NCBI GenBank assembly: GCA_031283505.1
Contig: JAITBO010000281.1
Coordinates: forward strand, 1-12,401
Source: Treponema sp.
GTDB lineage: Bacteria > Spirochaetota > Spirochaetia > Treponematales > Breznakiellaceae
Direction of reading: 5' to 3'
DNA: 12,401 nt
Both the position numbers and the translations under genes were made by a program. Numbering within the stretch: position 1 is the first letter of the stretch; every line of letters begins with the position of its first letter. The notes under the pieces are model-generated. The model was not told where the DNA came from. It was given only the letters and a program-made list of their open reading frames with translations, and made no database searches. Of the stretch, positions 1-12,401 are shown piece after piece.

Positions 1-17
1 CCAGTTCGCCATTGAGT

Positions 18-57
18 TTGGCAAAGAACGGGTTCCGTTCTAATGATATTTTGCCAA
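18..57. repeat. Two-part inverted repeat at the window edge
   Basis: TTGGCAAA (18-25) pairs with TTTGCCAA (50-57). Inside it, GAACGG (26-31) pairs with CCGTTC (35-40) around a three-base loop, leaving a nine-base bulge on one side only. It covers the TAA that ends the plus-strand reading frame at 41-43. There is no T-run after it on the plus strand, so a standard terminator is unlikely. Confidence 0.6.
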
Positions 58-199
58 TTACACAAAAAATCTGACAGGCCCCCGTTACAAGAAAAAACAA
101 GTATATGTTGACTTTGATGTTGTTTAGTGTAGGTCATTCTGGAAAACCCAAACGAAAAATCCTGCTTTTTTAATACTTTATAGACAGACTCCAGGTAGT

Positions 200-234
200 G
201 TCTGTCCACAAAGTCGGTTACTTTGCGGACAAAC
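200..234 (-). repeat. 15-bp inverted repeat, fully paired only in minus-strand RNA
   Basis: Arms 200-214 and 220-234 surround a five-base loop. Thirteen of fifteen positions are Watson-Crick pairs. The two others (202/232 and 208/226) are C-A or A-C on the plus strand but become G-U pairs in an RNA copied in the direction of the GH57-like gene. A hairpin in that 3' region is therefore favoured on the minus strand. No T-run follows. Confidence 0.6.
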
Positions 235-237
235 TCT

Positions 238-268
238 GCATTTTCTCGCCTAAAGGCTGCGAAAATGC
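238..268 (+). repeat. AT-rich hairpin followed by a plus-strand T-run
   Basis: GCATTTTC (238-245) pairs with GAAAATGC (261-268), and a short GCC/GGC stem (248-250 with 255-257) closes a TAAA loop. On the plus strand GGTTTTTAAGG follows directly, so this could weakly terminate a plus-strand transcript entering from the window edge. The stem is weak for a terminator, so I do not call it one. Confidence 0.45.
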
Positions 269-280
269 GGTTTTTAAGGT

Positions 281-316
281 AGTCTGTCCATAATGTGTCT
301 ACATTATGGACAGACT
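281..316. repeat. Perfect 16-bp inverted repeat with a four-base loop
   Basis: AGTCTGTCCATAATGT (281-296) and its exact complement (301-316) flank GTCT. It begins 14 bases past the stop of the GH57-like gene on the minus strand. A perfect 16-bp stem in an intergenic gap is not expected by chance. It is not followed by a T-run on either strand, so RNA 3'-end protection, a protein binding site or the tip of a mobile element fit better than an intrinsic terminator. Confidence 0.8.
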
Positions 317-329
317 CTAAATAGAAAAA

Positions 330-2270
330 CTACCGGTGAGAAAGTTTCAGCCGGTACCCGGTTTCCAGGGAGGCTTCCGGGTTCAGGACCACTGCGGTCA
401 CCGGAAGGATGCAGGTAAACTGGTAGAGCGGTACGTCCCTGCCATGAACAGGACAGGAAACCCTGACGGGCTGTATATAGGCGTCGAAGTTCGAGTCCGA
501 TTCCAGGGTGAGGCTCACCTCATTTTTAAGGTCCTGAAATTCAACCCCGGCGGTATCCGGTATGATTCCTTCGGCCCCGGGGAGAGCGCTTTCCACGCCG
601 CCGCCGGGCTTCAGGACCCGCTGATAATTCTCCCCCTCTCCGGGAAAAGACAAATCAAGCCGGGGGATAAAATTGAACCTGAGTTCTTCGCCGCCCCGGT
701 TGGTCAGAAGGTATCTGATCGAAAGAGTATCCTTTTTAAGGTAGTAGGTTTTTTCAATCTCTACGGAACCCAGGGGCAGATTCATATTCGGTAAAAGACG
801 GAAACAGAGTTTCTTGTGAACCTTGTTCACTTCGAGGGCTTCGTAACGCTCCAGAACGCAGCAACGACCCGGGAAAGCGGATGGGCCTGTGGCCAGAGCT
901 TCCGGAGGAAAACCAGGGGGCGCCAAAAAATCGGCGAAACCGGTCCTGAACCGACCGTCCCCGGCGCCTTCTTTCCGGGCTTCCAAAACGGCAAGATAAT
1001 TCCAGGTTTTGGGGAGATAATCAAACTCAAAAATCCCGGCGCCCACAGCCTTTACATAGCAGTTGATACGCTCATCCTGGAACAGGTATTCATCTTCCCC
1101 ATCAAGATCAAAATCCACCGTCATAAGGGAAGGAATAAAAATACCCTTTTCCCTGGCGATCTTCTCGGCCCCCAACAGGGCCCGGTAGGCGGCGTTCCTA
1201 ACCGTGTTTCGGTATATCCCCCCCCCGGGCCGCCGGTAAAAGGAATCCAAACCCTGGGCTTTCCAGAGCGATTCCCGGGCGTTGCGCTTACGGGACTTGT
1301 CCCCCCTAAGTTGGTTGATGAGTACGTGGATAAACATCATCTTGGCATAGACGCCGTTCGCTTCCGGATAGGTAATGAGGAATTGCCGGGGATAAAAATC
1401 AATTTTAGGCTCATTGTCTCCATCAGAGGAATTCTCCACCGGTTCTCCCTCAAAGGAGGGGGGAAAATACGCCCTGGTCAATCCCTGCCGGCTCTTATAG
1501 AGCTTTGCCGGGGTATTGAAGTTCACAAAGGACTCGCACTGAGAAAGTTCCTCGAAAAGGCGGAACAAACCTTCTTCAATTTCCTGAACATCCCCGCTTC
1601 CCAGGGACCATTGCTCAGGAAACACTGAAACAACCCGCCTTCCGTCCACGGGTATCTCTTCGGCCAGTTGTTTCATGGCGCGGGTCAGCTTTCCGGAGGT
1701 AAAATCCCGGGTTAACCGGCTCGAAATGGGAAACACTGTAATGATCTTCCCCTGATCTTCCGTGATATGGGGGGTGTACAGGGCTTCTCCGGACAGACCC
1801 GCCCGGATAAATTGTTCCTCCCGGAGAAAGGTATATCCTATACCGGAATTATGCAGAACCCCCGTAAGGCTCTGATCCCAGGCCAGAGCGGGCAGCCAGC
1901 AACCCTGGGGACGCTTGCCGAACTCTTTCCTTATATATGTAGTCATAAGTTCAATCTGCCCGAGCTTATCCGTCTGGGAAAGCAACGTCAATAGGGGTTC
2001 GTAAAACGCGCCTCCCAGCAATTCCACCTGTTTCCGGGCGATAAGTTCTTCCATGAGGGAGAGATATTCCGAATGGGCTTTATCGAGCCACTGGAGCAAA
2101 AAGCCGGAATGGTGCAAAACCGCCTGTATATTTGGGAATTTATTCAACGCCGTAATAAATGGCTTTAATTTTTTGGCATAAAAACGTTCTATTTCATCTT
2201 CCCCTATCCCATAGGGAATATGATTGTGAGAACCTATAATCAATGTTAGAGGAACACTCATCGTAACCAT
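330..2270 (-). CDS. GH57 4-alpha-glucanotransferase-like protein, probably catalytically altered
   Basis: Homologue of GH57 alpha-amylase/4-alpha-glucanotransferases, 646 residues, in the size range of Thermococcus-type enzymes. The N-terminal barrel has SHNHIPYG (14-21; family HNHxPxG) and QVELLGGAFYEPLL (81-94; family GGFYEPIL). A DUF1925-like region follows (about 295-370; YPEANGVYAKMM and AAYRALLGAE), then a C-terminal beta-rich DUF1926-like region (about 390-640). Two catalytic motifs are changed. The family's WL-x-ERVW, with the nucleophile Glu, reads WLPALAW (125-131), with Ala128 at that position. The family's DDGEKFG reads PEQWSLG (218-224). The YWHG-x-FGG stretch is FYRRPGGG. Activity on glucans is therefore doubtful; sugar binding could remain. 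A G9 tract encodes G349-G351. ATG at 2270 and ATG at 2261 are both possible starts: AAGGATA sits very close to the first, while the second matches the usual N-terminus. Confidence 0.85.
   Translation of the reverse strand: MVTMSVPLTLIIGSHNHIPYGIGEDEIERFYAKKLKPFITALNKFPNIQAVLHHSGFLLQWLDKAHSEYLSLMEELIARKQVELLGGAFYEPLLTLLSQTDKLGQIELMTTYIRKEFGKRPQGCWLPALAWDQSLTGVLHNSGIGYTFLREEQFIRAGLSGEALYTPHITEDQGKIITVFPISSRLTRDFTSGKLTRAMKQLAEEIPVDGRRVVSVFPEQWSLGSGDVQEIEEGLFRLFEELSQCESFVNFNTPAKLYKSRQGLTRAYFPPSFEGEPVENSSDGDNEPKIDFYPRQFLITYPEANGVYAKMMFIHVLINQLRGDKSRKRNARESLWKAQGLDSFYRRPGGGIYRNTVRNAAYRALLGAEKIAREKGIFIPSLMTVDFDLDGEDEYLFQDERINCYVKAVGAGIFEFDYLPKTWNYLAVLEARKEGAGDGRFRTGFADFLAPPGFPPEALATGPSAFPGRCCVLERYEALEVNKVHKKLCFRLLPNMNLPLGSVEIEKTYYLKKDTLSIRYLLTNRGGEELRFNFIPRLDLSFPGEGENYQRVLKPGGGVESALPGAEGIIPDTAGVEFQDLKNEVSLTLESDSNFDAYIQPVRVSCPVHGRDVPLYQFTCILPVTAVVLNPEASLETGYRLKLSHR
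1218..1226 (-). repeat. Run of nine G inside the GH57-like gene
   Basis: Nine consecutive C on the plus strand (G on the coding strand) encode three glycines, residues 349-351. A gain or loss of one base would shift the frame a little past the middle of the protein. Poly-G runs of this size are known as variable sites in Treponema pallidum; whether this one varies cannot be seen from one sequence. Confidence 0.9.
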
Positions 2271-2375
2271 TATCCTTTTAATTTCAATTTTAGACTACTT
2301 TCTTTGATATGAAAAGCTAAAATCGCAGAGTAATGTAAAAAAAGAAGTTGTTTAAGGCTTAATCCGTACTGGACA
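2271..2375. other. AT-rich intergenic gap between rnfA and the GH57-like gene
   Basis: This 105-base gap is clearly more AT-rich than the coding sequence on either side. After the rnfA stop, the minus strand has a small TTAAG/CTTAA palindrome and a run of seven T, but no stem strong enough to call an intrinsic terminator. The part closest to the GH57-like gene holds a promoter candidate and AAGGATA before the start codon. Ordinary Rnf operons have rnfB at this place; nothing resembling it is present. Confidence 0.6.
2287..2315 (-). promoter_or_regulatory. Candidate sigma-70-type promoter for the GH57-like gene
   Basis: On the minus strand TTTTCA (2315-2310) and TAAAAT (2292-2287) are separated by 17 bases. 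They match the -35 consensus at four of six positions and the -10 consensus at five of six. The predicted start of transcription, near 2280, leaves a very short leader containing AAGGATA. The region is AT-rich, so chance matches are likely. It is supported mainly by position. Confidence 0.35.
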
Positions 2376-3005
2376 TCATCTTCTTTCCAGGACCTGAAAC
2401 AGTACGGCCACGACGGAAGAAAAAATCAAGGACATAAGGCCCATTGATATGAAGAGAAGGGGCCTCCCCCGCAAGGTATGGGGAAGACGCTCCAGGGACG
2501 AACGCCGGTGTATGTCCCGCAGGATAAGGACCGCCGCCGCTCCTCCCAGGGAAAACCCCAGAGAAAGGACCACCGCTTCTGGAAAGGAACCGGCGAGACG
2601 CAGGGTCAAAATAAGAGCGGCTATGGTAAGGCCATCGTAAGCGGTTACGGCGGGAAACAGATCGGAGGCCGACAATTCTTCGAGTACCGGCCTGGGTATC
2701 CATGCCGCCTGCGGAACATCGGAGAATAAAAAACGCCGGACCAGGACCTCCAGCCCCTTCCCCGCCGCCTTTATCAGGGGAAAGAGCAAAAAATACTCAA
2801 AATACCCCAGGGCCAAGGGGCTTAGGATATACGAAAAGAGGAGCCAGAACAGGAGAACAGAAAAGAAGAGTATTCCCCATTGAAAAAGGGTAGCTCTGAT
2901 AAGCCGTTCCGGGTGAGAACCTATATCCCGTATCCCCAACCCCATTTGAAGCAACAGGTTGAGGGAAAGGCCCGACAAAACCGCCAGGATGATTATATCG
3001 CTCAT
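2376..3005 (-). CDS. rnfA: RnfA-like membrane subunit without any cysteine
   Basis: Integral membrane subunit of the RnfA/NqrE family, 209 residues against about 193 in E. coli. It begins MSDIIILAVLSGLSLN and has about six hydrophobic segments. GRPLLFISMGLMSLIF near the C-terminus matches the RG-x(5)-I-x-x-GLMSLAF block of the family. In RnfA the cluster ligands lie in FLG(I/L)CPF and TTNCAVLG. Here the first reads GLGIRDIG (22-29), putting Arg26 at the cysteine. The second reads VTAYDGLT (120-127), putting Asp124 at the cysteine. The protein contains no cysteine anywhere. The ATG at 3005 has AGGAGG four bases upstream and overlaps the rnfE stop. No rnfB follows: the next 105 bases are non-coding and then a separate GH57-like gene begins. 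The identification rests on gene order, topology and the C-terminal block. Confidence 0.8.
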   Translation of the reverse strand: MSDIIILAVLSGLSLNLLLQMGLGIRDIGSHPERLIRATLFQWGILFFSVLLFWLLFSYILSPLALGYFEYFLLFPLIKAAGKGLEVLVRRFLFSDVPQAAWIPRPVLEELSASDLFPAVTAYDGLTIAALILTLRLAGSFPEAVVLSLGFSLGGAAAVLILRDIHRRSSLERLPHTLRGRPLLFISMGLMSLIFSSVVAVLFQVLERR

Positions 3006-3658
3006 GATTCCTCCTGGTTTTTTTCACCGGATTCCTTGCGAAACTGACGTTTCTTCTCCCGGCGGTACATGGCAAGACCATAACCAAACAGCAAAAGGGC
3101 CCCGGCGGAACTGCCTATGATCTGTATGGGAAAGAGGGTGTCTTCTCCATTGTCAAATATCTCAACGGTACCTCTCATGCCGCCGGGTAGTGAAAGGGAA
3201 CCGAACCCCAGGGGTTCCCGTACCAGGGCAAAAGCCAGGATCAAAAGTCCCAGGGTCAGGGCTTCGGAAACGACCTGTATCAGAGCGTCTTTTAGAGGCA
3301 GAGTCTTAACACGGGGAAGTACCCCGGCGGCGATACAGCATACCGGCGTCAGGATGATAAACAGAGATGTTTCCGCAGCCAGAAAAGGACTTATGAGGCA
3401 AAAGATGAGATAATATACCCCTCCAAAAAAAGCGGACAGGGTGATCATCGTAAGGTTTTTCCCCTTTTTCGGCAATACCGGCGCGGCAAGGCAGAAAACC
3501 AGGGCGGTCAGGGCGTATACCCAGGCCAGAGCGCCCAGAGTTACCAGGGCAAAGGCGGTACGGCTCGAAGCCATAATAAGAAGCCCTACCCCGATGAGGG
3601 TAGAAAGAGGAGAACGGGAACCCCAAAAAAGGTGGTTTTGCGGATACGAATTATTCAC
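3002..3658 (-). CDS. rnfE: RnfE-like membrane subunit with one of two cluster cysteines
   Basis: Integral membrane subunit of the RnfE/NqrD family. The 218 residues align with E. coli RnfE without gaps over the first half-repeat: SPLSTLIGVGLLIMASSRTA (16-35) sits where the family has a LLGLCP block. The cluster cysteine becomes Gly25 and the following Pro becomes Leu26. At the second site, IILTPVCCIAAG (101-112) replaces IPLIVTNCIVVG and keeps a cysteine at C108. VREPLGFGSL (146-155) matches the LRE-x-x-G-x-G turn. Six hydrophobic segments are apparent, with a very basic C-terminus (RREKKRQFRKE). The start is GTG at 3658 with GGGAGG seven bases upstream, overlapping the stop of rnfG. The stop overlaps rnfA by ATGA. 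RnfA and RnfE normally hold one [2Fe-2S] cluster between them in the membrane; it is unlikely to form here. Confidence 0.85.
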   Translation of the reverse strand: MNNSYPQNHLFWGSRSPLSTLIGVGLLIMASSRTAFALVTLGALAWVYALTALVFCLAAPVLPKKGKNLTMITLSAFFGGVYYLIFCLISPFLAAETSLFIILTPVCCIAAGVLPRVKTLPLKDALIQVVSEALTLGLLILAFALVREPLGFGSLSLPGGMRGTVEIFDNGEDTLFPIQIIGSSAGALLLFGYGLAMYRREKKRQFRKESGEKNQEES

Positions 3659-4134
3659 TCTTTATCCTCCCACGCCCTGCGGAGTAAGGCATAACTTGTC
3701 TCTATGTGCCGGGCATAGATGCGGAACTGCCCCGGCGGGAGCCTCTGGAATACCGCTTCCGCGTGAATGCTTAACGGGATGAAGGGACTGGCCTTTCCAT
3801 CCGGGGAAATAAGGGCCAGAAAGGGGGTAAAAACGCCGTCTGACGCCACAGTGAAAACAACCGCCCATTCTTCGGAATTGACGGTGGTAAACCAGGTCCC
3901 CGACTGAACAGCCCGGCCAGGCATACCCCAGGAAGAAAGCGCCGTTTCCAGGCGGATTTCCTCACCTACTGTACTCAGAATCCTATTCACCCCATTGAGA
4001 AGCGCCCGGTTCCGTACCGGCTGAGTGAGCCCCCAAAGCAAAGCGCTAATCAGAATCAAACCGGCTATCCATCCGGCAAAGAGCCCCATGCGTCTGACAG
4101 GCGGCGGAAGGTCCTTTAACTTCTCCAGGATCAC
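3655..4134 (-). CDS. rnfG: Short RnfG-like protein lacking the FMN-attachment motif
   Basis: The call rests on position between rnfD and rnfE, on architecture, and on weak sequence similarity. The 159-residue protein has a short charged N-terminus, one membrane segment (about 17-36), then QPVRNRALLNGVNRILSTV, which resembles the segment after the anchor in RnfG. A globular part follows with VVFTVASDGVFTPFLALISPDG, like the FMN-binding domain strand. Ordinary RnfG is about 190-215 residues and ends in a domain with S(G)AT-type covalent FMN attachment. That motif is absent here and the C-terminus (ETSYALLRRAWEDKE) is short. The start is GTG at 4134 with an excellent AAGGAGG five bases upstream, and it overlaps the rnfD stop. 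The stop overlaps rnfE by GTGA. An unrelated small anchored protein that replaced RnfG cannot be excluded. Confidence 0.72.
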   Translation of the reverse strand: MILEKLKDLPPPVRRMGLFAGWIAGLILISALLWGLTQPVRNRALLNGVNRILSTVGEEIRLETALSSWGMPGRAVQSGTWFTTVNSEEWAVVFTVASDGVFTPFLALISPDGKASPFIPLSIHAEAVFQRLPPGQFRIYARHIETSYALLRRAWEDKE

Positions 4135-5210
4135 GCCGGCCTCCTTGTTTCATCAGGACAGGGATTATGAAACACCCTGCTTTCCATAGACCGGATCACG
4201 GGAGTCAGAACATTAAGCAGGGCGATGGCGAAAAACGCCCCGTAGGGCTCGTTCCCCCGGTACCGAAAAAGAAAGGTGAGAACCCCGCCCAAAAAAGCGA
4301 TGACCGCCGCCCCTATCCATGTTTTCGCTCCCGAAGCGGGTTCCAGGGCCAGAAGGAAGGCAGCCGCTATTGTTCCCCCCGAGAAAAGCCCGTAGAGTAT
4401 GTCCCCCCTTCCCAGGCCCTCTCCCAGCGCCAAGATTCCGGGCGCGGCATCAATAACGGTTTCGTTTATAAAACCCGGCAGGGCGCCGAAAAAACGGACT
4501 AGGAGGGCGTAAGTACCCAGAAAAAGGGGAGCAACCCAGAACCGGCTTACCTGGGAAGCGGTGATCAGAATGGTACCCAGGAGCAGGGCCATGAGCCCCC
4601 GATCCGCGATGATGGACGGAGAAGACGAAAAGAGGAGATTGATATACCCTGCGGGTAACTCCGAGCCGGTCAGAGAAAAGATAGTGTGGTTCAGGAATTC
4701 TGTAACGCTCCTGTCCAGAGAGCCGAAAAACGAAAGAAGCCCACCAGGAACGTTGATTCCCGAGGAAGGAACCCCTGACAGAGCTTTTTCAAATGGACCG
4801 GGCCATGAAAAGCGGATAAACAGCCAGCCGCCAAGGGCGGGGTTCAGCCAGTTGGCCCCCAAGCCTCCAAAACTCTGTTTGACAACCGCCATGGCAAAAA
4901 CAGCTCCCAGAACGGCAAGCAGAGGATTTATATGATTGGGCAGGAGCAGGGTAAGCGCCAGGGCCGACGCAACGGCGCTTCCGTCCCGCAGGGTACGGGT
5001 CCCCATCATCCGGTTTATTACGAATTCCGTAAAGAACGCCGCCACCACCGCCGCAAAAGCAAGACCCAGGGAAGAAAAAGAATCGGTCATGGAAGACTGA
5101 AGTATTCCCAGGCCGGCGCAGACGCTTATTATCACCATCCGTCCCATGGTAGGGCGGGCAAGATTTATCTGGGGGCGCTGTAATAAAAATCGCGGAAGCT
5201 GATCGGACAT
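4131..5210 (-). CDS. rnfD: RnfD-like membrane subunit lacking the flavinylation motif
   Basis: Integral membrane subunit of the RnfD/NqrB family. The 359 residues contain family blocks in order: an N-terminal RPTMGRMVI, DGSAVASALALTLLLP (76-91), KQSFGGLGANWLNPALGG (111-128), YGLFSGGTIAAAFLLALEP (273-291) and FFAIALLNVLTPVI (326-339), with about nine to ten hydrophobic segments between them. In ordinary RnfD a (S/T)GATP motif shortly after the NPALxG block carries covalent FMN on its threonine. Here the matching stretch reads LSGVPSSGINVPGG (144-157) with no GAT. The usual GExS motif before a later helix is also lost (ADRGLMALLLG, 202-212). The ATG at 5210 has GGGGGA nine bases upstream, inside the end of rnfC. 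The tail NPCPDETRRPA is hydrophilic and overlaps rnfG by GTGA. Family membership is clear, but flavin transport of electrons is unlikely. Confidence 0.88.
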   Translation of the reverse strand: MSDQLPRFLLQRPQINLARPTMGRMVIISVCAGLGILQSSMTDSFSSLGLAFAAVVAAFFTEFVINRMMGTRTLRDGSAVASALALTLLLPNHINPLLAVLGAVFAMAVVKQSFGGLGANWLNPALGGWLFIRFSWPGPFEKALSGVPSSGINVPGGLLSFFGSLDRSVTEFLNHTIFSLTGSELPAGYINLLFSSSPSIIADRGLMALLLGTILITASQVSRFWVAPLFLGTYALLVRFFGALPGFINETVIDAAPGILALGEGLGRGDILYGLFSGGTIAAAFLLALEPASGAKTWIGAAVIAFLGGVLTFLFRYRGNEPYGAFFAIALLNVLTPVIRSMESRVFHNPCPDETRRPA

Positions 5211-5211
5211 T

Positions 5212-6513
5212 TCAATTTTCCCCCAGTGCGTATCGAATGATGGTGGTACTCAGGGGCAGCCGGGAAGGACAGACCGCTTCGCAGCATCCGCAGCCATGAC
5301 ACTCCCCTGCCCGGCTGGTGCCGTCTTTCTTCCCGCTTACCAGCGACCGTTTGTACAGTTCTTCCGGATCAAGACCCACGGGGCACACAGACCGGCACTC
5401 CCCGCAACTGATACAACTACGGCTCAGTTCTCCCCCGGCCCGGGATTCAAGAAGGGCGAAAACCGCGCCGCTGGTCTTGATCACCGGTTCGTCCAGGTCC
5501 GTCACCAGCCGGCCATGGAGGGGCGATCCCACGGCTATACGTTTGGGTTTTCCTACAAAACCACCACATTCGGCAAAAATTTCACCAAGCCGGGTCCCTA
5601 TCCTCACCTTCATGATCTGGGGATTCTTGACAGCCGAACCCCCGACCGCTATATACCGGTCCAAAATAGGCTTTTTTAACTTTACCGCGTCATGAACTGC
5701 CGCCAATGTTGCGGGACCCAGGATGAGAAAGGACCCAAGAACCTCATTTTCTTTTTTTTCGTAAACCCTGAGTACCAGTTCCAGTTCCCGCCTGTTCCGC
5801 TGGGGATACCGGGAACCGACCAGGACCAGGGACGCGGGGATACTCCACTGCTCCGCCTCCGCCAAAAGCCCGGCGCCCAGGTCCTTTTCCCGGTAAGAAA
5901 CAGCAAAAACAATGCGATTTGCTCTGGCAGCCCTGGCGGTGATGGCGCTCCCCTCCACCACCGCCTTGATCCGCTCCCGACAAAGCGCGTAATCCGCCGC
6001 AAGCCAGGGATCGTCGAACACGCACCTGACTACCAGGGTAAAAGGAGCTTCGGCGGACCAGAAGGCGGAAATCAGGTCCGAAACCGGACGGCCAGGCATT
6101 TCCATTTCAACAATACCGTAATCGGAGATGATATGTCGGAGAACATCTGAGGAAAGATTTTCCCAGGAAAAAGTCTCCTCCCGTTTCCCCAGTTTTTCAA
6201 AGGCCCCTTCCATACGGATAACCAGGCCGTCGTTGGTATAGCCTTCGGCGGTTTTCCATGAAACCATCCTGACCACCTGGCCGGGAACTGTGGCATGGAT
6301 GTTTGCGGAACCCGGTCCCTGACCCTGGCCTATGAGCATCCCCTCCTGAACCTTCTCTCCCACCGCCACTGTGGGATGAGCCCGTCCGCCGGTATGTTGA
6401 ATCAGAGGAATTACCGAAAGGCCGGGGAGAAAAGCGGTTACGCTTGTGTATCTTGAGGGAACCGTGGAATCTTCAAACTGAATCCCTCCCCGGGGAAAAG
6501 AATAAACTTTCAT
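5212..6513 (-). CDS. rnfC: RnfC-like subunit with Fe-S motifs but degenerate FMN/NADH site
   Basis: Peripheral electron-input subunit of an Rnf-type complex by homology. The 433 residues follow short RnfC proteins along their whole length: an N-terminal PRGGI, then IPLIQHTGG (35-43), VGEKVQEGMLIG (51-62), NIHATVPGQV (71-80), RIGTRLGEIFAECGGF (304-319) and GSPLHG (329-334). Two C-terminal [4Fe-4S] motifs are intact: C367, C370, C373, C377 (CISCGECRSVCP) and C405, C408, C411, C415 (CHGCGCCEAVCP). The nucleotide and flavin parts are altered. The family's GLGGAGFPTHVK is EMEMPGRPVSDL (136-147), NGAECEPY is RCVFDDPW (163-170), and YPQG-E is YPQRNRRE (236-243). NADH oxidation is therefore doubtful. 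A run of eight A lies in the EKKE region. The start is an ATGA overlap with the upstream gene, and the end is one base from rnfD. Confidence 0.87.
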   Translation of the reverse strand: MKVYSFPRGGIQFEDSTVPSRYTSVTAFLPGLSVIPLIQHTGGRAHPTVAVGEKVQEGMLIGQGQGPGSANIHATVPGQVVRMVSWKTAEGYTNDGLVIRMEGAFEKLGKREETFSWENLSSDVLRHIISDYGIVEMEMPGRPVSDLISAFWSAEAPFTLVVRCVFDDPWLAADYALCRERIKAVVEGSAITARAARANRIVFAVSYREKDLGAGLLAEAEQWSIPASLVLVGSRYPQRNRRELELVLRVYEKKENEVLGSFLILGPATLAAVHDAVKLKKPILDRYIAVGGSAVKNPQIMKVRIGTRLGEIFAECGGFVGKPKRIAVGSPLHGRLVTDLDEPVIKTSGAVFALLESRAGGELSRSCISCGECRSVCPVGLDPEELYKRSLVSGKKDGTSRAGECHGCGCCEAVCPSRLPLSTTIIRYALGEN

Positions 6514-8006
6514 GCGGCGATCCGTTTATCGTTGAATACCAGAGAACTTCCTCCCTTGCGCTCTCTCCGGCCACCCCGAATCAAAGAAGAAAGGGCCGGG
6601 ATTAAAATGAGCAATATCACTATCAAATTCCCGGAAGTACGGACAAGACTTACCGCAGGAGTATAACCTTCCAGGAAACCCATAAAATCCGCCAGGGGAA
6701 AGGGGGGAAATTCCCCATAGTCCCCATAAACAGGAGCGCCAAAACCGGTTTGGGCGATCCCCTCCCCGTCTTCCTGTCCGGCCTTCATGACAAGACCGTC
6801 ATCTCCTATAGAATAACGATAATAGTCAGAATACGGAAGAGATTCAGGATGGGTTTTGAATCTTTCGGCATCCTCCAGGGGCCGTAACGAGAAAGACCGC
6901 TGAAAAGCCAGATGAGCCTCGTAATCCTCGGCGCAGAGTATCGGAATATCTTTCGTCAGTAGTTCCATATTCGGTTTCGCATCCGCTCCCGTCTGGAGGA
7001 AGGACAAGACCAGGGGAAAGATCGCTGCCGGAATCCAGGGAAGGATAGTACGGGGACAATTCAACTTAAAATACCGGAAAAAACCGGGAATACCCACAGC
7101 CGTCTTCTTAATAGGCGCCGGATGAAACCTTATGTGTCCATCCCGGTCTGTCCCGGCCCACAGAACGGTCCCGGTGACGCAGCAACACGAAAGAAGAACC
7201 GATAAGGCGGACAAAAACAGGATATTTCCAGCCCTGAGGATCATCACATAAACAAACGCGAACACCAGGGGCATAAGGCAGGAAAATACGGGGACCCCCA
7301 GGCGGTCCGGCGGCTTATGGGACAACCTGCGGCGGCAGGTGAAGAATTCCCGCGCCGGCGGGGTAAGGCTGCCGGAAAAAGCGAAAAGCGTCCCCGTAAG
7401 GGCCATGCCGGGAGACCCCAGGAACACCAAAGGTACGCAGAGGGGAATGAGGAAAACCAGCGGAAAAGGCGCCTCCGACAGGAAAAGGGAAGCCAAAACA
7501 GCCGCCGCAAAAACGGCGAACAGGATTAATGTCCGGGAAAAAGGCTGGTTACGGACCAGGAATTCCAGAGTATAGGGGGTATCCCCTAAAGTGGCGCCCA
7601 GGCGGCCCGCAAGTTTTTTGCGGGAATCCCCCTTTTCCAGGTTAAGGGGGATGAAAAAACGCCGCGTTCCGTCCCGAACAAAGAATGAACGCAGCCGCTC
7701 CGCATAGCCGTCATTACGGGGATCGAAGGGTTCCAGCCGTTCGGAGTATTCATCCAGGGGAACTTTAACCAGTTCCCCAAAATCGTCCAAATATACCCAT
7801 TGGCTGGATTCGGAAAAAAAGGGCTCTATTCCCGCCGAAGTTAACGCCCTCCCGATGGTACGGTCAGAACAGGACTGATCCACAGAAAGTACCCCATACT
7901 CCCCGAATGAAGCGCCGCCGGCGGAAGGACGGAAAAGAAAAAAAGAGAAGAAACCGGCGCCAAGAGAAACACATACTGTTATAATCACTGACCTTTGAAA
8001 CACCAT
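6510..8006 (-). CDS. Unrecognised multi-spanning membrane protein upstream of rnfC
   Basis: I do not recognise this 498-residue protein. It starts with a membrane segment (about 6-24), followed by a soluble stretch of about 125 residues containing SSQWVYLDDFGEL and EPFDPRNDGYAERLRSFFV. Hydrophobic segments follow at roughly 158-176, 181-196, 198-211, 239-257, 261-284 and 320-338. A second soluble stretch (about 340-455) holds an acidic, tyrosine-rich part (PYSDYYRYSIGDDG), and a last segment at about 459-476 precedes a basic tail (RGGRRERKGG). CCC at 274-276 and other cysteines lie in or near membrane segments, but no metal-binding spacing is evident. The TGA overlaps the rnfC start by ATGA, so it is almost certainly co-translated with the Rnf-like genes and is a good candidate for an extra subunit or assembly factor. 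It may be a conserved Treponema protein; I cannot verify that from sequence alone. Confidence 0.8.
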   Translation of the reverse strand: MVFQRSVIITVCVSLGAGFFSFFLFRPSAGGASFGEYGVLSVDQSCSDRTIGRALTSAGIEPFFSESSQWVYLDDFGELVKVPLDEYSERLEPFDPRNDGYAERLRSFFVRDGTRRFFIPLNLEKGDSRKKLAGRLGATLGDTPYTLEFLVRNQPFSRTLILFAVFAAAVLASLFLSEAPFPLVFLIPLCVPLVFLGSPGMALTGTLFAFSGSLTPPAREFFTCRRRLSHKPPDRLGVPVFSCLMPLVFAFVYVMILRAGNILFLSALSVLLSCCCVTGTVLWAGTDRDGHIRFHPAPIKKTAVGIPGFFRYFKLNCPRTILPWIPAAIFPLVLSFLQTGADAKPNMELLTKDIPILCAEDYEAHLAFQRSFSLRPLEDAERFKTHPESLPYSDYYRYSIGDDGLVMKAGQEDGEGIAQTGFGAPVYGDYGEFPPFPLADFMGFLEGYTPAVSLVRTSGNLIVILLILIPALSSLIRGGRRERKGGSSLVFNDKRIAA

Positions 8007-8012
8007 GAAGTA

Positions 8013-8016
8013 TCCT
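8013..8016 (-). promoter_or_regulatory. Ribosome binding site overlapping the upstream stop codon
   Basis: AGGA lies six bases before the ATG at 8006 and shares bases with the TAG stop of the YuiD-family gene (TTGTAGGATACTTCATG on the minus strand). This supports the ATG at 8006 as the start of the 498-residue protein and suggests that its translation is coupled to the gene before it. Confidence 0.6.
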
Positions 8017-8503
8017 ACAAATAAGCATACGCGGCTGCAATAAAAATGCCGAGAAACGCTCCAATTACTACTTCCAGGGGGGCATGACCATGCACTTCCT
8101 TAATGGGATGATACTCGATTCTTACACTCTCCACCAACTGCCGTCCCAGTAAATTCAGAGTTCTGGCTTGAATCCCCGAAGACCGCCGCACCCCCATGGC
8201 ATCACGCATAACGATCAGCGCGAAAAAAAAGGCGATTATGAATAAATTTGAGTTGATTCCCTCCCGAAAAGCCACGGAAGTTGTCATAGCGGACACCAGA
8301 GAAGCATGGCTTGAAGGCATACCACCGGTACGCCAGGCTATAGTCCCCAATATCTCCCTGCCGTTCCTCCTGTGTCCTTTAAGGAGGACTATTGCCGCCT
8401 TCATCAATTGGGCGATAAACCAGCTTGACACGCTGGACAAAAAAATAGGGTTTTCAAAAAAAGCTTTTATTGACTCTGACCGGGCAACTATAGCAAAAGA
8501 CAT
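8015..8503 (-). CDS. Divergent PAP2 family membrane protein (YuiD/DUF212)
   Basis: Small integral membrane protein of the DUF212/YuiD family, distantly related to PAP2 acid phosphatases and vanadium haloperoxidases. From the ATG at 8503 it has 162 residues, close to Bacillus YuiD (about 158). It shows NPIFLSSVSSWFIAQLMK near the N-terminus, then GGMPSSHASLVSAM (PAP2-like PSSH), ALIVMRDAMGVRRSSG, and GHAPLEVVIGAFLGI near the C-terminus. Each of these matches a conserved YuiD block, and three to four membrane segments are apparent. An in-frame TTG at 8539 would add 12 residues without a ribosome site; the ATG has GGAG about 13 bases upstream, which is long but better. The stop codon lies eight bases before the next gene. 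Its biochemical role is unknown, though lipid-pyrophosphate chemistry is plausible from the fold. It is the first gene of a run leading into the Rnf-like genes. Confidence 0.87.
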   Translation of the reverse strand: MSFAIVARSESIKAFFENPIFLSSVSSWFIAQLMKAAIVLLKGHRRNGREILGTIAWRTGGMPSSHASLVSAMTTSVAFREGINSNLFIIAFFFALIVMRDAMGVRRSSGIQARTLNLLGRQLVESVRIEYHPIKEVHGHAPLEVVIGAFLGIFIAAAYAYL

Positions 8504-8590
8504 TATACTAACAATTCTCCAGTAACTAAAATTTGTCAAGTATGTTTCGCACCGAGTTCCCGGCCAGACCCGGCGCTCCGGGATTGGGAA

Positions 8591-9421
8591 TTATCTGCCG
8601 TCAGCTATGCGGTAAACACCTCCCTTCTCCGCGACCATTAAATCTTTCTCTAGACTCTCCGCCGCCTTGTACGCCTCCTCTTTCCCTATTCCCGTGCGGC
8701 GGGCCAGATCTTCCGCTGTGGCAGGGCCCTGGAAGACAAGGGCCTTTATGACCATACCCCGGAGCCGGCGGAAGGACCCTTCAAAAGGACTCTGCTTGGC
8801 GTAATGGGCGCTTTTGCGGTTCGGGTTCGCCGTGAGCTTTTTCAAGGCGGCGCCGTAGTCCATCAGGGCCCAGTACCATTTCCGGGGGTTTTCCCTGTCC
8901 AGGGCGGCTTCCAGAACGGGGAACACTTCCTTGTCCTTTACCCCTTCCCGGCCCTGGAAAAAAAAATGAAGCGCCGCGGCGCGGATATTGGTTTCGATGA
9001 AGACCGCCGGGTAGTTGTAGGCGAAACAGGCGACGGCGCCCGCAGTGTAGGGACCTATACCGGGCAGGGTTTGCAGTTCCCCAGGCGTTTGAGGGACCAG
9101 TCCCTGGTAATCCTTTGCGATAGTCCCGGCGCAATCCCTGATATACCGGGCCCGGCGGTTGTAGCCCAGGCCGCTCCAGTCCCTCATCACGGTTTCCAGA
9201 GGGGCACGGGCCAGGTCCCGGGGAGAAGGCCAGAGGCGCATCCAGCGTTCCCAATAGGGGATCACCCTGTCTGTCTGGGTTTGCTGCAACATGAATTCCG
9301 AGACCAGGACCCCCCAGGGATCGGCGTTTTGCCGCCAGGGAAATACCCGCCCCGCTTCCTCATAATGGGAATAGATGACGTGCCGGAATTCGGCTATGCC
9401 GGTAGGAACGCTGCCGTTCAT
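8591..9421 (-). CDS. mutY: MutY-like A/G-specific adenine glycosylase without Fe-S cluster
   Basis: HhH-GPD DNA glycosylase predicted to remove adenine mispaired with 8-oxoguanine (GO repair). Visible motifs are FPWR (27-30); SEFMLQQTQTDRVIPYWERW, with the catalytic Glu of MutY at E42; GLGYNRRARY; and the helix-hairpin-helix LPGIGPYTAGAV (119-130). The usual catalytic Asp, found in a (L/V)D(G/T)N(V/I) context, is replaced by Glu in FIETNIRA (E143). The four C-terminal cysteines that bind a [4Fe-4S] cluster are absent: the ALMDYGA stretch is followed by KKLTANPNRKSAHYAKQS with no Cys. The NUDIX-like 8-oxoG recognition domain is also missing, and about 55 residues resembling a winged helix (PATAEDLARRTGIGKEEAYK) end the protein. 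At 276 residues it is shorter than E. coli MutY (350). Clusterless MutY homologues are known in some bacteria and protists. The start has only a distant AGGA, about 14 bases upstream. Confidence 0.88.
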   Translation of the reverse strand: MNGSVPTGIAEFRHVIYSHYEEAGRVFPWRQNADPWGVLVSEFMLQQTQTDRVIPYWERWMRLWPSPRDLARAPLETVMRDWSGLGYNRRARYIRDCAGTIAKDYQGLVPQTPGELQTLPGIGPYTAGAVACFAYNYPAVFIETNIRAAALHFFFQGREGVKDKEVFPVLEAALDRENPRKWYWALMDYGAALKKLTANPNRKSAHYAKQSPFEGSFRRLRGMVIKALVFQGPATAEDLARRTGIGKEEAYKAAESLEKDLMVAEKGGVYRIADGR

Positions 9422-9424
9422 GAG

Positions 9425-9973
9425 TTAATTCGGAATCCTGGCCTTAGCTTCTTTGATGATGATGTCTGCTATGGCGGGAGGATTAAGGGCGTCGGTTTCG
9501 ATGACGACATCCGCGAAATCGTACTTATCGTTGTCGATGTTGTAGATCCTCAGGTATCGTTCCCTATCCTGCCTGTCCCGGTATTCCGTGAAGGCGGCCA
9601 CCGCCGCAGGATCGCCCCCTTCCCGGTTCAGTATGCGCTTTACCCTGGTGTCGGACGAAGCGGTGAGAAAAACCTTGAGGTCCGCCTCGGCGAGCATCCA
9701 GATGGCCAGGCGGGAACCCAGCACGCATCCCCCACCCTCCCGCGCCAGGGCCACCTGACGGCTGTCAATCTCCCTGTCCCAGGAGTCATCTTCTTTCGCC
9801 AGGGGGAGCACTTCTTCAAGCGTCATCCCCCGTTCTTCCGCCAGGGTCCTGAAGGTAAAGTTGATAAACCTCAATCCCAGGATTTCCGCCACAAGACGGC
9901 TCACCGTGGTGTTGCCGCAGCCGCTTTTCCCCGAAACAGCTATTTTAATGTCCTTTATTCCCCGTTTTTCCAT
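9425..9973 (-). CDS. cmk: Cytidylate kinase-like P-loop kinase (archaeal-type Cmk)
   Basis: Probable cytoplasmic (d)CMP kinase making (d)CDP for nucleic-acid and lipid precursor synthesis. The 182-residue protein (from the ATG at 9973) has the Walker A loop GKSGCGNTT at residues 15-23. A middle block reads DREIDSRQVALAREGGG followed by VLGSRLAIWML, which in the short archaeal-type CMP kinases surrounds the substrate. The lid-like region RDRQDRERYLRIYNID precedes a terminal FADVVIET strand. It is shorter than E. coli Cmk (about 225 residues), as expected for the compact subfamily. An in-frame TTG at 10000 would add nine residues (MEQTQRRGN); I prefer the ATG because GGGG lies just before it, although that spacing is short. 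It follows yicC closely and precedes mutY by three bases. An AAA-type nucleotide kinase of other specificity is possible, because the family is often annotated only as cytidylate kinase-like. Confidence 0.82.
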   Translation of the reverse strand: MEKRGIKDIKIAVSGKSGCGNTTVSRLVAEILGLRFINFTFRTLAEERGMTLEEVLPLAKEDDSWDREIDSRQVALAREGGGCVLGSRLAIWMLAEADLKVFLTASSDTRVKRILNREGGDPAAVAAFTEYRDRQDRERYLRIYNIDNDKYDFADVVIETDALNPPAIADIIIKEAKARIPN

Positions 9974-10012
9974 ATTTCCCCGTCTTTGAGTTTGTTCCAA
10001 ACCCGCCCTACC

Positions 10013-10879
10013 CTATTCCACGTTCCGGAGCTGTTCCCGGATGTTTTCCAGCGCGTCTTTCATGTCCACCACCGCGCGGCTTACCTCCAGGTTCGGCGTC
10101 TTGGAACCTATGGTGTTGATCTCCCGGTTGATCTCCTGGCAGAGAAAATCGAGCTTTTTCCCCGGACTCCCGTTCCGTTTGACTTCGGCCCTGAATTCGG
10201 CCAGATGGGATGAAAGCCGGGAGATTTCCTCGGCAATAGTGTACTTTACCAGAAGGACCGCCGTCTCGGTAAGGATGCGGTTTTCGTCAACCGCGTCTCC
10301 CAAAACCTCGGTAAAGCGGCTCCTAAGGTTCTCCCGGAAAGCCGCTTCCATAGCCGGCACATGGTTCGAGACGGTTTCCGTCAGGGATTCCAGAATCACG
10401 ATGTAAGAGAGTATGTCCGCTTCGGTATGGTTTCCTTCCCGTATGCGTTCAGCTTCAAACTGATCCGCCGCGGCTTGCAGCACCGGCTCTATGATTTGGC
10501 GGTACCGCCCGTCGTCCCGGTTTTTTTCAACGTCCAGTATTCCTTCCATACCCAGAAGCGCCGGCAGGGAAGGTTTTTCTTCGACACGGAGTTCTTCGGC
10601 CAAAACCGCAATGGCCTCCCTATAGGCGCGGACAGCCTCCCGGTTCACCGAAATCGAGACCGGAACATTGTGTTCCCTGAGCCTGATGTTTACCTCAATC
10701 TTTCCCCGGTTGAACCTGCCCGACAGGTATTCCCGTATTCCCGGTTCCAGGGCGGAAAGAAAGGACGGCAGAACGACCGGTATTTCCAGAAACCGGTTGT
10801 TATAGCCTTTAAGTTCCACCGACAGGGATATGTTTTCGTCCTGCCGGGCGGCGTATGCGTATCCTGTCATGCTTTTCAT
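10013..10879 (-). CDS. yicC: YicC family endoribonuclease
   Basis: Member of the YicC/YloC family, whose E. coli and Bacillus members act as endoribonucleases. The 288 residues begin with the family signature MKSMTGYA, followed by LKGYNNRFLEI at about residues 24-34, matching the usual E-(I/V)-x-x-N-x-R-(Y/F)-L-(D/E) block. The C-terminal DUF1732 domain is well conserved: GKKLDFLCQEINREINTIGS, then SRAVVDMKDALENIREQ up to the end. Length is normal for the family. The start is firm: GGGAGGG lies four bases upstream, inside the end of murC, and the ATG overlaps the murC TGA, so the two are translationally coupled. In many bacteria yicC precedes gmk (guanylate kinase); here a cytidylate-kinase-like gene follows instead. 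The family call is certain from the two signatures; substrates in this organism cannot be inferred. Confidence 0.93.
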   Translation of the reverse strand: MKSMTGYAYAARQDENISLSVELKGYNNRFLEIPVVLPSFLSALEPGIREYLSGRFNRGKIEVNIRLREHNVPVSISVNREAVRAYREAIAVLAEELRVEEKPSLPALLGMEGILDVEKNRDDGRYRQIIEPVLQAAADQFEAERIREGNHTEADILSYIVILESLTETVSNHVPAMEAAFRENLRSRFTEVLGDAVDENRILTETAVLLVKYTIAEEISRLSSHLAEFRAEVKRNGSPGKKLDFLCQEINREINTIGSKTPNLEVSRAVVDMKDALENIREQLRNVE

Positions 10880-12384
10880 TGAACCCTCCCGGCGCTTTCA
10901 TCGCGGCTGTAAGCCCCGCGGTAGTAATCCGCCAAAAGCCGCCCCAATTTCCAGTTGTCTCCGGCCCCCATGGTAAGGAAGAGGTCGCTGGGGCGGAGCG
11001 TTTTTTCCAGCGTTTCCGCCGCCTCCGGGGGCTCCTCGATATAGTAAACCTGGTCCCGCAGGGCTGAAGTCTTTTCAAACAGCGTCCTTCCCGTAACGCC
11101 GCCGCCGTATTCTTCCCGGGCGGACCCGTAAATCTTGTGAAGAAAAAGAATGTCCGCCGCATTGAAGGAAGAAGCGAACTCGTCCAGCAGGGCGGCGGTC
11201 CTGGTGTAAGTGTGGGACATGAAGCTCAGGACAATCCTCCTTTGGGGGTAGAATTCCCTGAGACCCTCCAGGGTTGTCTTTATCGCCGTAGGATGATGCC
11301 CGTAATCGTCCATGAAAAGGATGCCTCCATATTCGCCCAGAATCTCGGACCGCCGCTTGCTCCCCCGGAAATCCTCCAGGGCCCGACGTGCGTTTTCCCG
11401 CCGTTCTTCCGTCCAGCCGTCTTCCCCGAATTCGGCTCTGACCAGGGAATCGGTCAAGACCAGAGCCGCCGCCGCGTTCAGGGCGTTGTGGCGGCCCGGG
11501 ACCCGCAGTCTGAATTCCCCCGGCAAGCAAAAGTTCTTATCCGATGCTCCCCGCAGGCGTACCGCCATGCGTTCCTCCGAAACCTCGCAACTTGTTATAC
11601 CGAAAGGGCCCGGCGCGGTAAAACCATAGGGGACGAGACGTATCCCCTGCCCTGTCCGGGCGGCCTTCTCCGCCACTTCCCGCGCTCCGGGATTGCCGGC
11701 GCAGAAGAAGAGTTCCCCGCCGGGAGGAAGTTTGGCGGCATATTCCAGAAAGGCATCCCGGATTGCCTCGTAGGTAGGGAAACAGTCCTGATGATCGCTT
11801 TCCACGCTGGTAAGGACGATGCGTCTGGGATGGAAGGCAAGAAAATGCCGGCGGTACTCGCAGGTTTCGGCGACAAAATATTTATCCCCCAGATTGAGGG
11901 TGGACCGGCCCCCGAAGCCGCTTACGGCGCTTCCGGCCAGAACACAGGCGGGAAGACCGGCCCCCTTGATAAGGGCGCCGGCCATGACGGCGGTGGTGGT
12001 TTTGCCGTGGACCCCCGCTATGCCCGACGAGTCAAACCCTGCGGAATAGGCGCCCAGGGCATCGGGGTATTTCAGCATGGGGATTCCCAACTCCCCAGCT
12101 TTCAGGAGTTCCGGATTTGTCTCCGGCGAATAGGCTGCGGAATAGATCACCAGGTCCGTTTCCGGATATATATGGGAAGAATCAAAGGACTCATAATAGG
12201 GTATGCCTAATTCCCTGAGTATGCCGTCGGTGTAAAAAATTTCCTTTCCGTCCGATCCGGAGACCCGGACGCCGGAATTATGCAGCAACTCCGCCAGAGC
12301 GCAGGTTCCCGTTCCCTTAATGCCCACAAAATAGACGGTCCGTCCCGGCTGCATGGCCGGCCGTATGGCCTTTGCCGTTTCCAT
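10876..12384 (-). CDS. murC: UDP-N-acetylmuramate--L-alanine ligase (MurC)
   Basis: Cytoplasmic ATP-dependent ligase that adds L-alanine to UDP-MurNAc, the first amino-acid step of the peptidoglycan stem peptide. The 502 residues show the three Mur-ligase domains in order: an N-terminal Rossmann domain with GIKGTGTCALAE (residues 21-32), a central ATPase domain with the P-loop GVHGKTTT (124-131) and AETCEYRRHF (172-181), and a C-terminal domain with DDYGHHPTAIKTT (359-371), HTYTRT (391-396) and GAGDNWKL (473-480). The CEY form of the central acidic motif differs from the EADESD form of E. coli MurC; I recall the CEY form from some clostridial MurC. The ATG at 12384 is preceded by only a weak AGG about 17 bases upstream, close to the window edge, so the start is less certain than the gene. 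The stop overlaps the yicC start (ATGA). Mpl (murein peptide ligase) is the main alternative; the overall motifs fit MurC better. Confidence 0.93.
   Translation of the reverse strand: METAKAIRPAMQPGRTVYFVGIKGTGTCALAELLHNSGVRVSGSDGKEIFYTDGILRELGIPYYESFDSSHIYPETDLVIYSAAYSPETNPELLKAGELGIPMLKYPDALGAYSAGFDSSGIAGVHGKTTTAVMAGALIKGAGLPACVLAGSAVSGFGGRSTLNLGDKYFVAETCEYRRHFLAFHPRRIVLTSVESDHQDCFPTYEAIRDAFLEYAAKLPPGGELFFCAGNPGAREVAEKAARTGQGIRLVPYGFTAPGPFGITSCEVSEERMAVRLRGASDKNFCLPGEFRLRVPGRHNALNAAAALVLTDSLVRAEFGEDGWTEERRENARRALEDFRGSKRRSEILGEYGGILFMDDYGHHPTAIKTTLEGLREFYPQRRIVLSFMSHTYTRTAALLDEFASSFNAADILFLHKIYGSAREEYGGGVTGRTLFEKTSALRDQVYYIEEPPEAAETLEKTLRPSDLFLTMGAGDNWKLGRLLADYYRGAYSRDESAGRVQ
10884..10890 (-). 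promoter_or_regulatory. Ribosome binding site for yicC inside murC
   Basis: GGGAGGG lies four bases before the yicC ATG and within the last codons of murC. It fixes the yicC start and, together with the ATGA overlap, shows translational coupling between the two genes. Confidence 0.75.
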
Positions 12385-12401
12385 ATTGTAATGATAACCT
12401 G

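Follow-up and report, generated by a model that had tools for sequence, protein, structure and literature searches.

An Rnf-type operon of treponemes, kept under purifying selection, that lacks most of the redox ligands of Rnf

Rnf and Nqr figure in textbooks as redox pumps. What does an rnf operon do when its genes are intact and most of its cofactor ligands are gone? The question is raised by a contig of Treponema sp. (NCBI GenBank assembly GCA_031283505.1, contig JAITBO010000281.1, positions 1 to 12,401 of the forward strand); the window, in what follows, is this whole stretch of 12,401 bases. An earlier note on this DNA had reported five adjacent genes in the canonical order rnfC-D-G-E-A with rnfB missing, and both the order, at 6513-2376 on the minus strand, and the absence of rnfB from the window are confirmed here. 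The five genes form one operon and are homologous to Rnf, in the case of RnfG' through intermediate sequences only. The sequences make it highly probable that the encoded complex, called stripped below, is a redox-uncoupled and selected descendant of spirochaete Rnf, and it very probably does a different job from the Rnf pump. The genes and residues at issue (NADH, reduced nicotinamide adenine dinucleotide; FMN, flavin mononucleotide) are the following.

6513-2376, minus strand: rnfC-D-G-E-A cluster, five genes in the canonical rnf order
5212..6513, minus strand: rnfC', 433 amino acids; lacks the NADH/FMN motifs, has two [4Fe-4S] motifs
5989..6027, minus strand: RnfC' RCVFDDPWLAADY, at the position of the canonical N-G-x-E-C-E-P-Y-L-T-x-D FMN/NADH motif
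5365..5415, minus strand: RnfC' first [4Fe-4S] motif, CISCGECRSVCPVGLDP (C367-P383)
5257..5301, minus strand: RnfC' second [4Fe-4S] motif, CHGCGCCEAVCPSRL (C405-L419)
4131..5210, minus strand: rnfD', 359 amino acids; RnfD/NqrB fold
4611..4784, minus strand: RnfD' loop, residues 143-200, which replaces the covalent-FMN segment and lacks a motif of the S/T-G-A-T type
4842..4844, minus strand: RnfD' N123, riboflavin ligand retained
4341..4343, minus strand: RnfD' E290, aligned with riboflavin ligand D249
3655..4134, minus strand: rnfG', 159 amino acids; single anchor helix and extracytoplasmic domain, FMN motif gone
3002..3658, minus strand: rnfE', 218 amino acids; G for C25, Cys at the C108 position, K for R67, P for E115
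2376..3005, minus strand: rnfA', 209 amino acids; both [2Fe-2S] cysteines gone (R for C25, G for C113)

The genes rnfC and rnfD lie 1 base apart, and the D/G, G/E and E/A pairs overlap by 4 bases each, so that the tight overlaps described earlier stand; the strong ribosome sites of the same claim are clear at rnfG, rnfE and rnfA but weak at rnfC. Residues are numbered as in the Rnf of Acetobacterium woodii (chains of 9eri), with the ligands taken from the available part of PMC11889175. In the window RnfA has R for C25 and G for C113, RnfE has G for C25, RnfD has lost T156, RnfG its S/T-G-A-T motif and RnfC both GxGGAxFP and ExEP, and the cluster cysteines of RnfC are all present (8/8). RnfC thus keeps only its two [4Fe-4S] motifs, as had been proposed. 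The companion claim, that the ligands are gone from the other four products, holds for RnfA and RnfG and has to be narrowed for RnfE', which has a Cys at the C108 position (as do 3/7 members of the window's group), and for RnfD', which retains N123 and has E for D249.

The same losses are found in orthologues from other species. Stripped operons were counted at 58 loci, namely the earlier loci and 20 more, with two partly stripped operons (L046 and L053) left aside; L129 has no rnfE or rnfA on its contig, and L172 has only C, D and gene X, the upstream neighbour of rnfC, of the set. The eight cluster cysteines of RnfC' are present at 58/58 stripped and 40/40 canonical loci, whereas GxGGAxFP and ExEP are each present at 0/58 stripped vs 40/40 canonical loci. 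The covalent-flavin motif of RnfD was found at 0/58 stripped vs 38/40 canonical loci. For the RnfG flavin motif the figures are 0/52 vs 39/40, a count in which some of the 52 RnfG' were chosen by position and the L119 entry is a wrong open reading frame (ORF) of 70 amino acids (the true RnfG' of L119 was used in the operon reading and profile comparison). RnfA has C25 in 0/53 stripped rows, after exclusion of the wrong ORFs chosen by position at L125 and L126, and RnfE has C25 in 12/56 and C108 in 4/56. Canonical loci (26 syntenic and 11 second sets) keep C25 and C108 of RnfE, C25 and C113 of RnfA and N123 and D249 of RnfD in 37/37 cases.

Within the group of the window (n=7), the NADH/FMN motifs of RnfC are present in 0/7, neither C25 nor C113 of RnfA is retained (C113 is G throughout), and RnfE has C25 in none and C108 in three, the window included. 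RnfD of this group has N123 in all seven and D249 in three, with E in the other four. In 27 rows from Treponemataceae, RnfE has C25 in 12 and C108 in one; RnfA has C25 in none and C113 in none, where one row (L125) is a wrong ORF and the 0/27 for C113 comes from the 27-row alignment alone, as this column is a gap in the Treponemataceae rows of the larger alignments. RnfD of the same 27 has N123 in 23 and D249 in 6 (E in 6, W in 9). In a further alignment (A2) of 39 RnfD' relatives of the window, N123 is present in 39/39, and the D249 position holds D in 24 and E in 15. Mutants of A. woodii Rnf in the corresponding ligands are inactive, according to the available part of PMC11889175.

Some positions are conserved within the stripped proteins. 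The NADH/FMN loop of RnfC, canonically N-G-x-E-C-E-P-Y, reads x-L-(F/Y)-(D/S)-x-(D/E)-(P/T) in 45/51 Treponemataceae rows and F-D-D-P-W in 7/7 of the window's group. D168 of RnfC' (window numbering) is D in 7/7 and 27/27 stripped rows, and canonical RnfC has E; R204 and N174 of RnfD' are invariant in 34/34 stripped rows (7 + 27). A Glu was also seen at RnfA position 111, beside the former [2Fe-2S] ligand and the Na+ site, in 23/27 Treponemataceae rows, one of which is a wrong ORF.

Pfam cut-offs were passed by D (PF03116, 3e-48), C (PF13375, 7e-15) and E (PF02508, 6e-6); the NCBIfam rnf matches all fell below cut-off (C, TIGR01945, 1e-64; D, TIGR01946, 6e-27; A, TIGR01943, 2e-7), and the rnfG' of the window matched no rnf family in Pfam or NCBIfam. 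Profiles of Treponemataceae G' were matched both by canonical RnfG, at 74% (E 3e-5), and, at 92% (E 5e-7), by the G' of the window's group. The latter is therefore counted as RnfG because Treponemataceae G' bridges it to canonical RnfG, and because of its operon position. An NQR identity was ruled out by the nqr models, which gave at best 24.6 bits for A' (cut-off 247.6), 19.0 for E' (235), 50.3 for D' (414) and 35.6 for C' (450).

rnfB is absent from 7/7 loci of the window's group. A short rnfB-like gene is present at 11/31 Treponemataceae loci, with 185-232 amino acids in ten and an ORF call that starts far upstream in the eleventh, and at 15/20 further loci (178-222 amino acids). These 26 loci are L127, L130-L133, L146, L150-L152, L155, L156 and 15 of L159-L178. 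Two ferredoxin-like cysteine motifs are found in 26/26 of the short RnfB', whereas the N-terminal motif of the NC..C type is found in 0/26 vs 39/40 canonical RnfB by pattern (the fortieth, L067, by eye). The short RnfB' may be regarded, on sequence grounds, as an intermediate stage of rnfB loss. The missing N-terminal motif presumably belongs to the small single-cluster domain of RnfB. That domain passes electrons to the membrane cluster in A. woodii (PMC11889175, available part). If the motif does lie there, the parts removed would flank the membrane wire at both ends.

The place of the operon in the genome bears on its origin. On the minus strand the window holds, in order, murC, yicC, cmk, a mutY-like gene, DivPAP (DUF212), X, rnfC, rnfD, rnfG, rnfE, rnfA and a GH57-like gene. 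The immediate neighbours are the following.

8015..8539, minus strand: DivPAP (DUF212) gene, upstream neighbour
6510..8006, minus strand: gene X, 498-amino-acid membrane protein, alpha/beta domain on the extracytoplasmic side; 4-base overlap with rnfC
330..2270, minus strand: GH57-like gene, downstream neighbour; canonical loci have rnfB between rnfA and GH57

Gene X (8006-6510) overlaps rnfC and is a sixth gene of the operon that had not been counted before. It has no Pfam or NCBIfam match above cut-off, and its structure model matched no solved structure at E <= 0.001, with weak RND/SecDF-like rows only. A search for RnfD across the class Spirochaetia gave matches in 210/248 genomes, and 39 loci were read around matches of differing strength, of which 31 are canonical (a fortieth, L076, is a filler). 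X adjoins rnfC, directly upstream, in 22/31 canonical loci, and overlaps it or lies <=13 bases away in 22/22 of these. It was found there mainly by a profile grown from the window's X, so its E-values in canonical loci are not independent. As X stands directly upstream of rnfC in these loci and in stripped ones, it may be an overlooked Rnf partner in spirochaetes. GH57 follows rnfB in 29/31 canonical loci (in L068 and L071 none precedes the end of the fetched piece). Of 38 stripped loci counted, all 38 have DivPAP, 33 have GH57 and 37 have X, the exception being L119. With X and GH57 as shared neighbours, the stripped set sits where other spirochaetes have canonical Rnf.

The closest named relatives of the window are two Treponema metagenome-assembled genome (MAG) contigs, JAIRLK010000267.1 and JAISOQ010000219.1 (RnfD identity 78%), in which the gene order is that of the window and the frames are intact. 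A sequencing artefact or frameshift was ruled out by these syntenic operons. Besides the stripped rnfD (E 1.9e-48 and 3.4e-49), both genomes carry another of canonical strength (E 8.5e-107 and 3.8e-107), in a second rnf operon that has rnfB and retains its ligand motifs; its genes run C-D-G-E-A-B in one genome and, in the other, where the locus reaches a contig end, D-G-E-A-B. An rnfB elsewhere in the genome, which the earlier note had asked about, was thus found in both relatives, in a separate canonical set. The window's own genome may carry one as well, outside the window. X, GH57 and DivPAP are not among the neighbours of the second canonical sets at 11 loci. In these genomes the full Rnf stands at another site, as a second set, and what happened in which order can only be inferred. 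A recent duplicate of the second Rnf was ruled out by the neighbours held in common with canonical loci and by stripped RnfC standing outside the canonical rows.

In the RnfC tree, a branch supported at 100/99 separates 7 + 30 stripped rows from the canonical side, to which the partly stripped L046 and L053 belong. A quick RnfD tree concurs (97); the RnfA tree is weak (81, with long branches meeting). Stripped RnfC forms a single clade that spans two genome-taxonomy families. L046 and L053 are rnf operons of two other spirochaete genomes in which RnfB and a recognised RnfG were not found in the locus; each genome has a second canonical set (L138, L139), and these operons are possibly an independent start of the same stripping process. 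In G224, a genome with both a canonical and a stripped set, contig 1 carries at 1923360-1924235 one more rnfD-like gene, the third, whose 195.7 bits fall slightly short of the cut-off.

The stripped subunits are under purifying selection. In ten stripped pairs omega (dN/dS) of C', D', G', E' and A' is 0.036-0.329, with one wrong-ORF pair (L125/L126 RnfA, omega 4.1) excluded from the range, and frames are intact in all pairs compared. Pseudogenes, which the first reading of the window had also discounted, were ruled out by omega. A decaying remnant on the way to loss would be in keeping with looser constraint than in canonical Rnf, with the loss of rnfB (and of X in one genome, G079), and with a split RnfD'. 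This last was seen as two overlapping ORFs in L127 and L128, either a disruption or an assembly error. Frames in relatives are intact in the compared pairs, and RnfD' is split at these two of the 58 stripped loci. Decay has against it the intact overlapping frames in two families, omega of 0.04-0.33, the eight cysteines at 58/58 loci and retention of the operon in a reduced genome of 1.14 Mb; it is largely refuted as a general explanation and has very little probability left.

As a further explanation, the stripped set might serve a canonical second Rnf by regulating it, helping its assembly or acting as its hetero-partner. Canonical-strength RnfD is indeed present in 86/98 sampled genomes of the window's family. 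In Treponemataceae (the family of genome G026) the rnfD model matched in 255/274 genomes and its cut-off was passed in 196/274. The weak-match genomes, 58 chosen by eye from the best E-values where 255 - 196 = 59 were expected, include 6 with strong RnfA (4 above cut-off, 2 slightly below). Canonical-strength RnfD or RnfA was therefore not seen in 52/274 genomes that show the stripped set; some are incomplete MAGs whose gaps could hide a second Rnf, so 52 is the number seen. The locus was read in 25 of the 52 and was stripped in all (L172 has only C, D and X on its contig piece), and two of these loci each lie on a single contig, 1.14 Mb long in one case and 2.90 Mb (2,895,582 bases) in the other, L169. 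Stripped sets with no second Rnf seen beside them argue against this explanation, which is regarded as improbable.

The smaller of these single-contig genomes, G079, bears directly on the syphilis spirochaete. The 2015 mBio paper on flavinylation in Treponema pallidum is reportedly a source of the proposal that this organism has an RNF pump, and may also discuss the missing ligands. G079 is one contig of 1,139,633 bases with its sole rnf operon at about 172-176 kb, C-D-G-E-A between GH57 and DivPAP, with RnfC cysteines 8/8; neither X nor rnfB was found at this operon, and the genome gave 0 rnfB model matches, 0 rnfA model matches and one weak rnfD match. In its rnfD, codon 260 encodes Val, and the coding strand has G as base 778, at 174,137. 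A tp0151 variant, 778C>T Val260Ile, is reported at 174,174 in the available part of PMC7162541, and that of PMC4403809 lists TPASS_0153 as acid phosphatase/haloperoxidase-like and TPASS_0154 as a pseudouridylate synthase gene. Because codon 260 and base 778 fit the variant, together with this listing, G079 is apparently T. pallidum. In the available parts of these papers, tp0151 is described as rnfD of an Rnf complex (PMC11371664), an energy scheme for T. pallidum is built on a flavin-dependent RNF pump (PMC7512555, PMC10194888, PMC11717252), one of these three terms the pump atypical or noncanonical, and the missing ligands are not mentioned in the text available from any of the four. No earlier description of a cofactor-poor treponemal Rnf was recognised among the matches listed, as far as their available text goes.

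We take the published "RNF pump" of T. pallidum to be the stripped operon. The model in print, in the available parts of PMC7512555, PMC10194888 and PMC11717252, would make it a noncanonical Rnf redox pump, a flavodoxin:NAD+ oxidoreductase, and Rnf gene order and fold agree with this. The sole rnf operon of the genome taken as T. pallidum is nevertheless without the ligands that such a pump needs: NADH/FMN motifs stand at 0/58, the RnfG flavin motif at 0/52, the RnfD motif at 0/58 and RnfA C25 at 0/53 in the stripped loci, rnfB has 0 matches in G079, and the corresponding A. woodii mutants are inactive in the available text cited above. A pump of this kind has accordingly a slim chance of being correct.

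The best reading of the sequences is that the stripped complex would be a cytoplasmic half-wire on a membrane scaffold and not a ferredoxin:NAD+ pump. As the RnfC clusters are always retained and a riboflavin site is kept near the window, a soluble carrier could supply electrons, and these would not pass beyond the cytoplasmic side. Reduced ferredoxin or flavodoxin would reduce the RnfC' clusters, and the electrons would come to rest at riboflavin on the cytoplasmic side of RnfD'. The redox state would then control the membrane part, RnfD', RnfA' and RnfE', which may transport or gate a small solute or an ion with no transmembrane electron flow to drive it. The half-wire may have a sensing or gating role. 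A redox-sensing transport or gating function of the complex is a tentative proposal that falls well short of an even chance, and the whole explanation, an uncoupled Rnf descendant with redox-controlled transport or gating, falls somewhat short of one. The coordinated loss of cofactors in intact genes, noted earlier in one contig, stands and is wider than that contig; of the new jobs then suggested, a scaffold fed only through the RnfC clusters fits best, and transport or gating is inferred.

Another possibility is a cytoplasmic electron port: electrons of ferredoxin or flavodoxin would run through the RnfC' clusters and the riboflavin of RnfD' to an acceptor at the face of the membrane, and the other subunits would serve only as scaffold. 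The cysteines of RnfC' (58/58), the riboflavin ligands of the window's relatives (N 39/39, D/E 39/39) and the short RnfB' with two ferredoxin-like motifs at 26 partly derived loci all agree with a port. No acceptor or quinone site was identified for it, the riboflavin acid is missing in about half of Treponemataceae, and separately selected RnfA', RnfE' and RnfG' are left unexplained. The retention of three membrane subunits and RnfG' slightly favours transport or gating, and a pure electron port is considered unlikely.

Several observations weigh against the transport or gating reading or the descent on which it is built. In profile comparison, G' of the window's group gave no direct match to canonical RnfG (probability 0.5%). 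The kinship of the RnfD' fold to Amt and urea channels is found in ordinary RnfD too and says nothing of function. In the window's group RnfE has lost the ion pair of the known Na+ path (R67 2/7, E115 0/7), so transport would require a new path. The window keeps one of the four [2Fe-2S] site cysteines of RnfA and RnfE (C108 of RnfE), and the riboflavin acid is not retained in about half of Treponemataceae (D in 6, E in 6 and W in 9 of 27). The RnfD' loop round N174 is partly present in L046 and L053 and in the canonical L058, and is thus not wholly new to the stripped clade. DivPAP, present at every stripped locus counted, is near only 1/31 canonical loci. In the same stripped pairs omega is 0.098-0.378 for X and 0.045-0.196 for GH57, X being looser than the rnf genes, and in four canonical pairs it is 0.011-0.156 for the rnf genes, which makes the stripped genes appear less constrained, a rough contrast since synonymous divergence (dS) is near or above 1 in three of the four.

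In addition, the mutY-like gene of the window (8591-9421) encodes a protein with two cysteines only (97, 132), and its mutY model match ends at profile position 189 of 277, about where we take the [4Fe-4S] loop of MutY to begin. It looks like a cluster-free MutY-type glycosylase.

The chances are about even that the Rnf/Nqr superfamily has, in treponemes, a third branch with a function of its own, in which the RnfC iron-sulfur clusters were kept, the membrane wire was lost and a redox-driven ion pump became a redox-sensing transporter or gate, and that this is the only Rnf of T. pallidum. If so, the syphilis spirochaete would have no redox pump of the Rnf type, and the energy scheme proposed for it would need revision. 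With the wire discarded and the scaffold kept, the scaffold may be useful in itself, and the stripped set offers a natural experiment that could tell the electron-serving parts of Rnf from the ion-serving ones. The stripped set at the canonical rnf locus, the cut-down rnfB in partly derived forms and gene X in the operon are what extends the earlier note.

Four known systems invite comparison. The Rsx complex of enterobacteria, also of the Rnf type, does more than conserve energy, and it keeps its redox cofactors. The window proteins fall under the RsxA, RsxC and RsxD cut-offs (23 vs 240, 194 vs 345 and 73 vs 415 bits). An rnf operon that lost rnfB and whose C/A subunit changed gave rise to Na+-NQR (PMC4014512, PMC12174285, available parts), which is a precedent for an rnf operon without rnfB that took a new job. 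The stripped set is likewise without rnfB, but the loss is the opposite one: NqrA is without cofactors and the membrane wire is retained in NQR, whereas the RnfC clusters are retained and the membrane wire is gone in the stripped set. NQR also has NqrF, whereas the stripped operon has no NqrF-like gene, none lying between rnfA' and GH57 in the window. The "noncanonical RNF" of T. pallidum (tp0151 region) is orthologous to the window's set, has GH57 and DivPAP as neighbours and is stripped in the same way, whereas it is a flavin-dependent redox pump in the available text of the papers named above. Rnf itself (RnfABCDGE; A. woodii 9eri, Clostridium tetanomorphum 7zc6) shares with the stripped set the order C-D-G-E-A, the RnfC dicluster, the RnfD fold, the anchored RnfG and the RnfA/E pair, and in spirochaetes X and GH57 flank the stripped set as they do most canonical rnf loci read. 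Unlike the stripped set, Rnf has the NADH/FMN motif, the covalent-flavin motifs, a complete [2Fe-2S] site and the Na+ ion pair, and it has RnfB where stripped sets have none or an RnfB' without the N-terminal cluster motif.

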